From assembly GCA_016874795.1 (NCBI GenBank), contig VGTG01000036.1, positions 1-42,134 on the forward strand: DNA of 42,134 nt. Direction: 5' to 3'. This document shows positions 3,801-42,134 of the stretch, one piece after another (positions within the stretch are counted from its first letter, which is position 1; each line of letters starts with the position of its first letter). The notes beneath the pieces are model-generated. The model saw only the letters and a program-made list of their open reading frames with translations, was not told the origin of the DNA and did not search any database. The position numbers and the translations under genes are program-made. This stretch comes from Deltaproteobacteria bacterium. GTDB taxonomy: Bacteria; Desulfobacterota; Binatia; UBA12015.

Positions 3801-5415
3801 GCGGCTTGTCGGACAGCGCGGCGAGCGGCGCGTCGTTGCCCATCGAGCCGACCGCTTCCTCGCCATTGATCGCCATCGGCTGCAGCAGGATGCGCAGATC
3901 CTCGCGCGTGTAGCCGAAGGCCTTCTGCAGCGTGACGAGCTCGTCGTGGTCGAGATCCGGCGGGACCTGTCTCGCCTCGGCCGGTGGCGCATCCTCGAAC
4001 CGGAGAAGGTTCGCGCGAAGCCACTCCCCGTACGGCTGGCGCGCCGCCATCCCTTCCTTGATCTCCTGGTCGTCGATGATCCGTCCCTGCGCGGTGTCGA
4101 CCAGGAACATGCGGCCGGGCTGCAGGCGGTTCTTCGCGACCACGTCCTCGTCGGCGATCGGAAGGACGCCGACCTCGGACGCCATCACGACGAGGCCGTC
4201 CTTCGTCACGACGTAGCGCGACGGACGGAGGCCGTTCCGGTCGAGTACCGCGCCGATCACCGTGCCGTCGGTGAACGCGATCGAAGCCGGACCGTCCCAC
4301 GGCTCCATCAGGCAAGCGTGGTACTCGTAGAAGTCGCGCTTGCTCTGGCTCATCCCCTCGTGCTTCTGCCACGCCTCGGGGATCATCATCATGACCGCGT
4401 GCGGGAGCGACCGGCCCGTGTGGGTCAGGAGCTCGAGCGCGTTGTCGAAGTTCGCCGAGTCGCTGCCGTGCGACTCGATGATCGGCAGGATCTTCTCGAT
4501 GTCCTCGCCGAACTCGTCCGAACGGAACATCCGCTGCCGCGCGTTCATCCAGTTGATGTTGCCGCGGAGCGTGTTGATCTCGCCGTTGTGCGCGAGCATC
4601 CGGTATGGATGCGCGCGATCCCACGACGGGAGCGTGTTCGTGCTGAAGCGCTGGTGCACGAGGGCGAGGGCGCTCGTCATCTCCGGGTCGCGGAGGTCGT
4701 GGAAGAAAGCGGGGATCTGCTCCGGAAGGAGAAGGCCCTTGTAGACGAGCGTGCGCGCCGAGAGGCTCGGGACGTAGAACGACTCCGAGTCCTTCAGCTC
4801 CTCGGAAGAATTGACGAGGAACTCGACGCGCTTCCGGATCACGTAGAGCTTGCGCTCGAGGGCCGCCGCGTCCTTCGCGCCGGCGCCGGCAGCGATGAAC
4901 ACCTGACGGATCTCGGGCATCGACGAGCGCGCGAGAGGACCGGCCTGGCTCGCGTCGACGGGGACCGTGCGCGAGCCGAGGAACGTCTGCCCCTCCTCTT
5001 TGATCACCTTCTCGAAGATCTTGAGGCAGACGTTCCGCTCGAAGACGTCGCCCGGCAGGAACACCATCCCGACGCCGTACGTGCCGGCCGCAGGCAGCTC
5101 GAAGCCGAGCTTGCGACACTCGCGCGAGAGGAACTCGTGCGGGATCTGGATCAGGATGCCCGCGCCGTCGCCGGTCAGAGGATCGCAGCCGCACGCGCCG
5201 CGGTGGGTGAGGTTGTCGAGGATCTTGAGACCCTTCTCGATGATGTCGTGCGTGCGGTGCCCGTCGATGTGCGCGACGAAGCCGACGCCGCACGCGTCCG
5301 ACTCGGTGGCGCTCCGGTAGAGGCCCGATCGCTCGGCCTCGCGCCGGAGACGGCGGAGCTCGGCGAAATACACCTCGTCCCGACCACCCGAGGTGGTTGG
5401 CTCTTCTTTCGTCAT
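802..5415 (-). CDS. gltB: Glutamate synthase large subunit (GOGAT alpha)
   Basis: 1537 residues, the usual length for bacterial GltB. The enzyme makes two glutamates from glutamine and 2-oxoglutarate, working with GltD. Order of domains: class II glutamine amidotransferase beginning at Cys42 (ACGVGFVAH), which would become the N-terminal nucleophile after removal of a 41-residue propeptide; central domain; FMN-binding TIM-barrel ([25 protein letters not shown]); 3Fe-4S cysteines C1157, C1163 and C1168 ([12 protein letters not shown]); and the C-terminal glycine-rich beta-helix. The ATG is preceded by GAGGG. It lies 32 bp downstream of an Lrp-family regulator and 26 bp upstream of gltD. No broken motif is seen. 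Confidence 0.97.
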
Positions 5416-23941: not shown

Positions 23942-24221
23942 GAGAGGGGCGCCGCCCCTCTCCTCCACGCGGCAAAGCCTAGCCTGCATTTCTCACCAGA
24001 TCACGTCGCGAGGCGGTCGAGAGTGCCGAAGATTCGCGAGCCTCGGACCGGAGGGCGACGCAGGCGTACTTGAACAGTACGTCGAGGAGCCCGGAGGGAG
24101 AAGCTCGCGAAGATTCGGTGCTATCGGCCGCCGCAGTAGGGATCTGGTGAGAAATGCAGGCTAAGTTGCGCCTCCTCTCCCCGCTCGCCCTCCGCTCGGC
24201 CGCGCGCTGCGCGCGCGGAGG
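23942..24221. repeat. Two-hairpin dispersed repeat, copy B, split by a MITE-like insertion
   Basis: Hairpin 1 is at 23942-23962 and hairpin 2 at 24200-24218 (CCGCGCGC/GCGCGCGG, loop TGC). The conserved spacer (CGGCAAAGCCTA...AGTTGCGCCTCC) is broken at the TA by 180 bp of inserted sequence (23982-24161). Uninterrupted copies A and C give the ancestral form. It lies upstream of the GntR regulator and is separated from the GDPD stop by a further single-hairpin copy. Confidence 0.8.
23982..24161. mobile_element. 180-bp MITE-like element with 21-bp perfect inverted ends
   Basis: Ends at 23982-24002 and 24141-24161 are perfect 21-bp inverted repeats beginning GCCTGCATTTCT. Each end is flanked by TA (23980-23981 and 24162-24163), and comparison with the empty repeat copies shows one TA at the site, so TA was duplicated. 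The interior has no credible ORF. It is centred on GTACT/AGTAC (24066-24080), with further imperfect arm pairing (GCCGAAGATTCGCGAGC against GCTCGCGAAGATTCGGTGC). TA duplication suggests mobilisation by an IS630/Tc1-mariner-type transposase not encoded here. The first 125 bp recur identically at 42010. Confidence 0.8.
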
Positions 24222-38999: not shown

Positions 39000-41126
39000 G
39001 TGCAGAAGCGTCAGAGCAAGACCAGCGCCCGGGCCGTCGTCCGAAAGACGACAGGCAAGTCCGTCGGACAAGCCTCGGGAGCGGGAAAGGCGGCGGTGAA
39101 GAGCGCCAAGCAAGGACGGCTCGCGAAGGGTGACGCCACCAAGCCGGCGCGCAAGAGCTCGCCTGCGTCGAGCTCGTCGACCTCCTCCGGAGCGAAGGCG
39201 AGCCCGTCGGCACGGGGTGGCGCGAAGGTCTCGAGTCGCACGGACGAGCTCGCACAGGCGGGTGCACGCGCTTCCGGCGACGGTGCTGCGGTCGATCGTC
39301 GCTCCGATCCGAAGCTCAAGAAGCTCATCGAGATGGGCAAGGAGCGCGGCTACCTCACCACCAACGAGATCAACGAAGGTCTCCCGAAGCAGCTCGCTTC
39401 GCCCGAGGAGATCGACGGCGTCATGTCCATGCTCGGTGAGATGGACATCGAGGTCGTCGAGCACGGCGAGGGAGACGGCGAAGAGGCCGGCGAGTGGACC
39501 GGCGAGGACAGCGACGAAGGCGCCGATGCCGACGCGAGCGACGGCCCCGAGCCCGAGGTCGGCGCGCCCAGCGCCTCGGAGCGGACCTCCAGCTCCAGCG
39601 GATCCGGCGCCGACACCTCCGACCCCGTCCGCATGTACCTCCAGGAGATGGGCGGCGTCCCTCTCCTCTCGCGCGAGGAAGAGGTCACGATCGCGAAGCA
39701 GATCGAGGCCGGCGAGAACGAGATCAAGGAATCGATCTTCTCGATCCCGCTCGCGCTCCAGTACGTCATCATGCTCGCGCAGCGCTTGAAGGACGGCGAG
39801 CTCAGCCCGCACGAGGTCTTCGGCGAGGAAGAGAAAGAGGAGAGCGGCGAGGAGAAGGCCGAAGGCGAGCAGGGGAACGACGACCGCGACCAGCAGCGCG
39901 TCGAAGCGTTCGTCAAGCACCTCGCCGGCCTGAAGAAGCTCGCCGCCGAGCGCACCCGCCTCGAGCAGGCGGGGCGCGGACGCAAGAACTCGGCGGAGTC
40001 GGCGAAGCTCGACAAGCGCTACCAGCAGCTCGCCGAGAAGATAAAAGCGGCGCTCTACGCGATGCCGCTCAGCCGCAAGCACATCAACGACATCGCCGAC
40101 AAGCTGAAGGAGGCGGTGAACCTCGTCGACCGTCCGCGCGAGCTGATGCGGACGGTGATGAACCGCAGCGGCAAGAGCGAGCAGGACCTGCAGAAGCTCC
40201 TTCGACGAGTCAAGGTCGGCGATCGCGCGACCGCCGCCGGCGTCGGCCGCGCTCTCCGCGTTCCCGTCGACGAGGTATTGGAGCTCGCGCAGAACGTGCG
40301 CGAGGGCTGGCAGAACGCGACGCTCGTCGAGCGCGAGGTCGGCATGTCGACGGACGCCCTCCGCGGGGCGATCGATCGCCTGCGGCGCGGCGAATGGCGC
40401 GCGCAGGAAGGAAAGCGAGCGTTGATCGAGGCGAACCTCCGCCTCGTCGTCTCGATCGCGAAGCGCTACACGAACCGCGGCCTCGGCTTCCTCGACCTGA
40501 TCCAGGAGGGGAACATCGGCTTGATGCGCGCGGTCGAGAAGTTCGAGTACCAGCGCGGCTACAAGTTCTCGACGTACGCGACCTGGTGGATTCGCCAGTC
40601 CGTATCGCGTGCGATCGCGGACCAGGCGCGCACCATCCGCATTCCGGTGCACATGATCGAGACGATCAACAAGGTGCTCCGGACCTCGCGCTACCTCGTC
40701 CAGCAGCTCGGCCGCGAGCCGACGCCGGAAGAGATCGCGACGCAGATGGAGATGCCGGTCGACAAGGTCCGCAAGGTCCTGAAGATCGTGAAGGAGCCCG
40801 TCTCTCTCGAGACGCCGATCGGCGACGACGAGGAGAGTGCGCTCGGAGATTTCGTCGAGGACCGCCAGAGCGTGTCGCCTGCCGACGCCGCGATGGCGAT
40901 CAGCCTCGAAGAGCAGACGCGCAAGGTGCTCGCGACGCTGACGCCACGCGAGGAACAGATCCTCCGCATGCGCTTCGGCATCGGCGAGCGGTCCGACTTC
41001 ACCCTCGAGGAAGTCGGGCAGCGCTTCGCGGTCACCCGCGAGCGCATCCGGCAGATCGAGGCCAAGGCCCTCCGCAAGCTTCGCAATCCAGCGAGGACCC
41101 GTTCGCTTGAAACTTTCGCTGGATAG
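39000..41126 (+). CDS. rpoD: Primary RNA polymerase sigma factor (sigma-70)
   Basis: 708 residues, GTG start. The first 100 or so residues are a Lys/Ala/Ser-rich basic tail, then region 1.1 ([27 protein letters not shown]), an acidic linker, region 1.2 ([28 protein letters not shown]) and a charged non-conserved region. Region 2 has [20 protein letters not shown] and [17 protein letters not shown]. Regions 3 and 4 include the helix-turn-helix [29 protein letters not shown]. Region 2.4 and 4.2 residues are as in housekeeping sigma factors, so it should read TTGACA/TATAAT. dnaG is not next to it, unlike in many bacteria. Confidence 0.97.
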
Positions 41127-41281: not shown

Positions 41282-41476
41282 ATGGAGAGCGGTCTCGAGA
41301 AGGAGCTTCGGGAGTGGCGTGAGAACCGCGTGCGAGCGATGAGCGCGCTCGCAGCGACCCGCGCCCAGATCTTCCCGATGCCCTCCGTAACGCCGTCCCA
41401 CAAGGGCGGTCGGCGGCTCCGCGTGAACGGCCAGGAGGTCCTGGTCGTCGCCAAAGCGCGGCGCATCAGCAACTAG
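41282..41476 (+). CDS. Small conserved-looking protein of unknown function (64 aa)
   Basis: [20 protein letters not shown] begins an amphipathic, Glu/Arg-rich helix. The second half is basic and probably beta ([24 protein letters not shown]). There is no signal peptide, membrane segment or cysteine. The perfect ribosome site and a strong hairpin 8 bp after the stop show a genuine gene. It is 155 bp downstream of rpoD on the same strand and could share its transcript. A nucleic-acid- or polymerase-associated role is possible given charge and position, but no family is recognised. Confidence 0.65.
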
Positions 41477-41581: not shown

Positions 41582-41655
41582 CTGTGCCAGGGAAGTTCGT
41601 CTCGCGTGCGCTGCGAGACTCGGATGGCACACCGGGCGCGCGGACTGTGCCAGGG
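41582..41655. promoter_or_regulatory. Paired direct repeats and palindrome upstream of the sigma-54 site
   Basis: CTGTGCCAGGG occurs at 41582-41592 and 41645-41655, exactly 63 bp apart (six helical turns). They lie about 180 and 115 bp upstream of the predicted start site, the normal range for enhancer-binding-protein sites. Between them is a palindrome GTCTCGC/GCGAGAC (41599-41619), whose left arm recurs at 41707-41713. Seen directly; the activator is unknown. Confidence 0.4.
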
Positions 41656-41734: not shown

Positions 41735-41752
41735 TTGGCACGAGCCCTGCAA
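41735..41752 (+). promoter_or_regulatory. Sigma-54 (RpoN) -24/-12 promoter
   Basis: TTGGCACGAGCCCTGCAA fits the TTGGCACG-N4-TTGCA consensus with a single mismatch (C for the first T of TTGC). The invariant GG (41737-41738) and GC (41749-41750) are exactly 10 nt apart. Transcription would begin near 41762. No protein-coding ORF follows, but a strong hairpin does. Confidence 0.6.
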
Positions 41753-41761
41753 CGGACTCCT

Positions 41762-41835
41762 CACGTCCCCCAACCACCCCACGGGCCCTGCCGGATCCCC
41801 CCTCCCGCCGGCAGGGCCCTCCCTCTCTCCCCTGC
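41762..41835 (+). ncRNA. Putative sigma-54-dependent small RNA with C-rich loops
   Basis: From the predicted start a C-rich single-stranded leader (CCCCCAACCACCCC) leads into a perfect 12-bp stem GGGCCCTGCCGG/CCGGCAGGGCCC (41783-41794 with 41808-41819). The 13-nt loop contains six consecutive C then CCC, and a pyrimidine tract follows. The layout is that of a short sRNA of about 60-75 nt ending in a terminator stem, with C-rich loops able to pair with G-rich ribosome sites. It recalls the actinobacterial 6C RNA in style only. Expression is unproven. Confidence 0.4.
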
Positions 41836-41868
41836 CGCACCGAAGCGGCGAGCGCGGATCGAGAGACC

Positions 41869-41885: not shown

Positions 41886-42009
41886 TCCCAGCGTCACCCA
41901 GGGCAAGCGAGGTTCCGACGGCCCGGCGAGACGCGACGACGGGCTCCTGGAATCGTTGCAGGGCCCCCGAAGCATGCTACCGCTCTAATGGGACACCCCC
42001 GGACGATTA

Positions 42010-42134
42010 GCCTGCATTTCTCACCAGATCACGTCGCGAGGCGGTCGAGAGTGCCGAAGATTCGCGAGCCTCGGACCGGAGGGCGACGCAGGCGTACTTG
42101 AACAGTACGTCGAGGAGCCCGGAGGGAGAAGCTC
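42010..42134. mobile_element. Second copy of the MITE-like element, cut by the window end
   Basis: The 125 bp present are identical to the first 125 bp of the element at 23982, with the same 21-bp end and a TA immediately outside (42008-42009). The right part lies beyond the window. Complete identity over 18 kb of separation implies recent transposition or gene conversion. Confidence 0.8.

Follow-up and report, generated by a model that had tools for sequence, protein, structure and literature searches.

A predicted sigma-54-dependent, C-rich small RNA family at ten loci in one family of uncultured bacteria

Several bacterial small RNAs, i.e., Qrr, GlmY/GlmZ and CrcZ, are transcribed from a sigma-54 promoter with upstream activator sites and occur as several sibling RNAs per genome. 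Such a control by sigma-54 and an enhancer is typical of signalling sRNAs that respond in an all-or-none manner.

Pxr, from Myxococcus, has a predicted sigma-54 promoter, an enhancer region, a length of about 108 nt and paralogues, in a host devoid of Hfq (PMC5568312, PMC5684412). Among bacteria without Hfq, it offers the closest precedent for control by sigma-54. The sX13 RNA of Xanthomonas has an unstructured 5' region, stable stems and C-rich loops; it is Hfq-independent and acts on G-rich motifs near translation starts (PMC3771888). NfeR1 / alpha-r14 of Sinorhizobium forms a sibling family in which CCUCC-type anti-Shine-Dalgarno boxes are unpaired (PMC10746234).

The window, i.e., the whole stretch of 42,134 nt that was analysed, is the entire contig C36 of a 6.27-Mb genome in 360 contigs. 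An earlier note had proposed that its tail encodes a C-rich sRNA transcribed by sigma-54 polymerase, and this remains the best reading, since promoter and stem are conserved and rpoN is present. From sequence comparison and by analogy with described RNAs, we consider it rather likely that positions 41735-41834 are a copy of a lineage-restricted family of trans-acting, C-rich sRNAs, predicted to depend on sigma-54 and to act without Hfq. This sRNA family has not been described before. It is known so far from one family of uncultured bacteria, which probably belongs to Binatia; a literature search for small RNAs in Binatia found no paper. The features of the locus are collected in Table 1.

Table 1. 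Positions, strands and supporting evidence for the features of the locus (window numbering).
Feature	Positions	Strand	Evidence
rpoD, upstream neighbour	39000..41126	+	NCBIfam NF004208, 684.5 bits vs cut-off 555
Candidate enhancer (UAS) region: TGTGCCA 41583-41589; inverted pair TGGCACAC 41625-41632 / TGTGCCA 41646-41652	41583..41652	.	motif enrichment
Sigma-54 -24/-12 promoter element TTGGCACGAGCCCTGC	41735..41750	+	direct reading; single window match; invariant in 10 loci
Predicted sRNA core (5' single-stranded C-rich segment, SL1, pyrimidine linker)	41762..41834	+	+1 from sigma-54 spacing; conservation; fold z
5' box CGTCCCCCAA, consensus CRTCCCCCRA	41764..41773	+	conserved in 10-locus alignment
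SL1: 12-bp stem, loop ATCCCCCCTCCCG	41783..41819	+	folds, alignment of 10 loci
SL2: CTCTC...GAGAG hairpin, window's genus (type A copies)	41824..41865	+	folds of four type A copies
lysR's own promoter region TTGCAG ... TACCGCTCTAAT ... GATTAG	41956..42010	+	aligned in other genomes
MITE-like repeat, partial copy, interrupts lysR leader, ends contig	42008..42134	+	identical copies; terminal inverted repeats

The near-consensus -24/-12 element with exact GG-N10-GC spacing announced by the earlier note is real: in TTGGCACGAGCCCTGC, GG (41737-41738) and GC (41749-41750) are separated by exactly 10 nt. The pattern GG-N10-GC alone has 855 matches in the window, both strands counted. The longer pattern TGGCAC-N6-TGC has a single match, i.e., the element itself, for a mean of 0.11 in shuffled sequences. 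With GC taken as -13/-12, the usual sigma-54 spacing places +1 at about 41762-41763. The gene rpoN, without which the proposal would fail, was found in the window's own genome. The same genome gives 33 matches to the Sigma54_activat domain, 27 of them strong.

Homologues of the element are present at 10 loci in 7 genomes, all of one bacterial family. When 39 relatives were searched at the DNA level, 6 genomes in addition to the window's own proved to have it. A covariance model was built from nine loci and its search added the tenth. Of the 148 genomes of the class, 7 have a match to the model; when the filters were relaxed for the 14 family genomes, all ten loci came out at E <= 1.4e-12 and the next match at E 0.08. 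In the phylum-wide search the matches reach only about 30 bits and were judged to be non-members. A pattern scan of genome contigs gave nothing new, i.e., the genomes already known and chance-like, unrelated-looking matches without the stem, and the same kind of scan gave zero matches in viral contigs. In three sister genera (g2, g5, g6) lysR and rpoN are present and the RNA was not found; loss of rpoN is ruled out as the reason, rpoN being found in 14/14 family genomes.

In the alignment of the ten loci, the promoter, the TCCCC(C) box and the stem core are invariant or nearly so, and the CCCTCCC core of the SL1 loop is invariant. Within the promoter, TGGCACG-N5-TGC as a whole is invariant, so that GG and GC are retained with the stem in 10/10 loci, as the proposed sRNA demands. 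Promoter and RNA core are about 0.8-0.9 identical among the loci, vs. about 0.26-0.45 for most bins of the flanks. From the -12 GC to the predicted start the sequence varies, and it is conserved again from +2/+3 onwards, as would be expected of a conserved unit that is the RNA made by this promoter. Covariation in SL1 is limited to one compensatory pair in ten sequences, which is not above shuffles; the stem is nearly constant and leaves hardly any room for compensatory changes.

Two types of loci share the promoter and the RNA core. Type A comprises the copies of the window, G001, G002, G003, G005, G006 and G010; type B comprises second copies in G001, G002 and G003. In type A the downstream gene is an orthologous lysR-type gene (Pfam HTH_1 and LysR_substrate) on the same strand, and its ATG is 269-294 bp from the -24 element in the six measurable copies, which belong to three genera. 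Type B is located away from any lysR: in G002 and G003 it has a short-chain dehydrogenase gene on one side and, on the other, the gene of an EamA transporter in convergent orientation, and in G001 the surroundings differ from these. Directly behind the linker, all three type B copies have a hairpin ACGGAYCG...CGGTCCGT followed by 3-6 T. In a strict terminator scan the G002 hairpin passes; in the other two copies this hairpin is followed by fewer T. No T-run terminator was found by the terminator scan behind the window copy. Taken together, the invariant promoter, a near-unique inverted pair upstream (see below), the core conserved at two kinds of loci and the diverged flanks point to a lineage-restricted RNA family.

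The perfect 12-bp stem, the six-C loop and the pyrimidine tract described from the letters are all present at 41783-41833. The arms of SL1 (41783-41794 and 41808-41819) pair without mismatch over 12 bp and enclose a 13-nt loop with a C6 run (ATCCCCCCTCCCG); the pyrimidine tract (41820-41833) follows directly on the 3' side. Perfect 12-bp stems with a loop of 4-20 nt exist at two places in the 42-kb window, SL1 being one of them. Folded from +1, the RNA has an energy of -39.2 kcal/mol (z = -5.6), and 0/200 shuffled sequences are as low. In the predicted folds the loop CCCUCCC is fully unpaired and the 5' CRUCCCCCRA is mostly unpaired. The fifth C of this 5' box is missing in one copy (A_G003). 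As for SL2, its outer arms align among type A copies and its inner part varies.

The ten 200-bp upstream regions contain 22 instances of the motif TG[AG]CACA vs. a mean of 0.4 and a maximum of 4 in 1000 shuffles; it must be noted that these counts are not independent, because the loci are related. At these loci the inverted pair is TGGCACA-N13/14-TGTGYCA and precedes the -24 element by about 85-120 bp. When TGGCACA-N12..16-TGTGYCA was searched in ten genomes, it was found only upstream of the RNA (G000, G001, G005, G006, G010) and at one other site, in G008. From its sequence, the pair fits a candidate site of a dedicated enhancer-binding protein.

The earlier note had placed the sRNA in a gene-free tail without any downstream ORF. 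This holds for this contig alone; elsewhere a lysR-type regulator follows, and the tail is an artefact of assembly. The lysR-type gene of the same genome is at the end of contig C95, where 10 bp separate its ATG from the last base. The window ends in a MITE-like repeat of about 185 bp, with near-perfect, TA-flanked inverted ends (TAGCCTGCATTTCTCACC...GGTGAGAAATGCAGGCTA). A full copy is present inside the same window (23979-24163). Of 267 candidates in the genome 40 were scored, and at least 40 copies are identical over 125 bp, a uniformity that suggests recent bursts. The tail thus looks empty because the assembly breaks at this repeat just before lysR; insertion of the element has presumably separated the lysR promoter from the start codon.

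The promoter-like region upstream of lysR is aligned in 10 other genomes, four of them without the sRNA, and lysR keeps it as TTGCGG...CTAAT...ATTAG in the sister genera g2, g5 and g6. The RNA is thus a separable unit, since this region is kept also where the RNA is absent. An arrangement resembling TTGCGG...CTAAT-N15/16-ATTAG precedes lysR in L042-L053 as well as at 41956-42010 of the window; judged by its sequence, it is probably the lysR promoter together with an autoregulatory operator.

The suggested regulatory link to rpoD is positional and confined to the window's genus, in which the type A RNA directly follows rpoD and a small ORF. This neighbourhood is lost in the two remaining genera with the RNA: rpoD was not found in the 18-20 kb around the RNA, and lysR still adjoins. 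The small ORF (41282-41476, 64 aa) is conserved, since five other family genomes have it at this place, after rpoD and before lysR; it has zero NCBIfam or Pfam matches.

The absence of a T-run terminator and the fixed distance to lysR in type A mean that the element also fits a 5' leader of lysR driven by sigma-54. Under the inducing signal, transcription would start at 41762, read through SL1 and SL2 and express lysR, the C-rich leader acting as an attenuator or riboregulator. The lack of a T run behind the window copy and the constant spacing on one strand over three genera favour this. On the other side, the stretch from the RNA to the ATG contains a conserved promoter-like region that belongs to lysR itself and is there even in genomes without the RNA; in type B the same promoter and core, followed by a terminator-like hairpin, are found where there is no lysR. 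We thus regard the leader as unlikely. To see only a terminator in the element is rejected, since type A has no T run and conservation covers the promoter as well as the stem. Another reading is that there is no functional RNA, i.e., that a sigma-54-like match lies by chance beside a GC-rich hairpin, or that descent has preserved an old terminator or repeat. The genome is GC-rich and GG-N10-GC alone is common, as the count in the window indicates; however, promoter, enhancer pair and core are conserved together at ten loci, unlinked paralogues included, while the flanks diverge, which makes this reading highly improbable.

The C-rich single strands might otherwise bind or titrate an RNA-binding protein instead of pairing with mRNAs, following the logic of CrcZ or CsrB. 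Repeated C-rich single-stranded tracts agree with this, as does the failure of the 5' seed search to find a conserved mRNA target; CrcZ/CrcY are controlled by sigma-54 and exist as sibling copies. However, Hfq/Crc motifs are A-rich and the CsrA motif is GGA, and the motifs of this RNA are of neither type. Moreover Hfq was not found in 14/14 family genomes (the control searches being positive), and C-rich loops are a known mark of sRNAs that pair with mRNAs. A protein-binding RNA thus appears improbable.

The seed search in question used perfect complements of the 5' seed. In seven genomes the complement CTTGGGGGAYG has 31 matches vs. 28 for the reversed control, i.e., no enrichment, and the RNA genes account for several of these 31. 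Between genomes, no conserved site was found outside coding sequence; the sole other conserved pair lies in a coding region of two sister genomes. Targeting of Shine-Dalgarno sequences by the C-rich patches is plausible by analogy with the RNAs cited above.

For the trans-acting sRNA, the following course of events may be proposed. A signal would activate an enhancer-binding protein, one of about 27 strong candidates, which would bind the TGGCACA/TGTGYCA pair; sigma-54 polymerase would then make a short RNA from the promoter at 41735-41750. This RNA would expose the free 5' CRUCCCCCRA box, the CCCUCCC loop closed by the highly stable stem, and the pyrimidine linker. Its C-rich patches would pair, without Hfq, to G-rich sites (GGGAGGG or UUGGGGGA-like) near the translation starts of several mRNAs, which would be repressed. 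The type B copies would end at their terminator-like hairpin and act as free sRNAs. More tentatively, a dedicated protein acting through the near-unique enhancer might make of the sibling C-rich RNAs a broad, Hfq-free brake on translation starts, type A being also tied to the expression of the adjacent lysR; this wider scheme is rather unlikely.

The element matches no family in Rfam at its gathering score. The comparison with 6C, recommended by the earlier note as part of an Infernal scan against Rfam, turned out negative, as for all other families. Identity with the 6C RNA is rejected: the window copy is unmatched at E <= 10 and its nine homologues at E <= 1. The 6C RNA of Actinobacteria resembles the window RNA in having a loop with a six-C run; the latter differs by one conserved SL1 and a free 5' C box. 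Membership in alpha-r14 (RF02344) is also rejected, the window element scoring 17.7 bits (E 0.35) vs. a gathering score of 58.8. CCUCC-type boxes in unpaired regions and sibling copies are common to both RNAs; on the contrary, NfeR1 has three hairpins, each with CCUCCUCCC, and is controlled by LsrB and NtrC.

Other genomes of the phylum (L106 from position 4026 on the + strand, L108 and L109) have a different C-rich element, namely GTCGCCTTCTCCTAACCCCTCC and, behind it, a hairpin that resembles a terminator, with CCCCCUCC in its loop and a T run after it. This element has no sigma-54 GG/GC element and no Rfam match; by its sequence it looks like an unannotated C-rich sRNA.

The likeness to sX13 (C-rich loops, independence from Hfq, G-rich targets) is drawn from its description. 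sX13 belongs to another lineage and has three stems with C-rich loops, where the window RNA has one conserved SL1 and a free 5' C box. Pxr has three stem-loops and lies between nla19/pxrR and Mxan_1079. A position directly downstream of nla19/pxrR, a sigma-54 response regulator, is not observed here: the upstream neighbours are rpoD and the small ORF in the window's genus, and the nearest upstream gene is a desaturase in the copies scanned from other genera (G005, G006). The 3' part of Pxr alone, rebuilt from published primers, gives short, chance-level matches with these RNAs.

With Qrr, GlmY/GlmZ and CrcZ the window RNA shares the sigma-54 promoter, the upstream activator sites (here candidate ones) and the siblings. 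These RNAs have other sequences, targets or partner proteins and are mostly linked to Hfq or Crc. The locus forms a compact and testable cassette of promoter, enhancer and RNA, for which the covariance model parts ten true loci from the background in the family. It combines two themes that are usually separate in the known systems, i.e., control by sigma-54 and an enhancer, and C-rich anti-Shine-Dalgarno pairing, here predicted, without Hfq.
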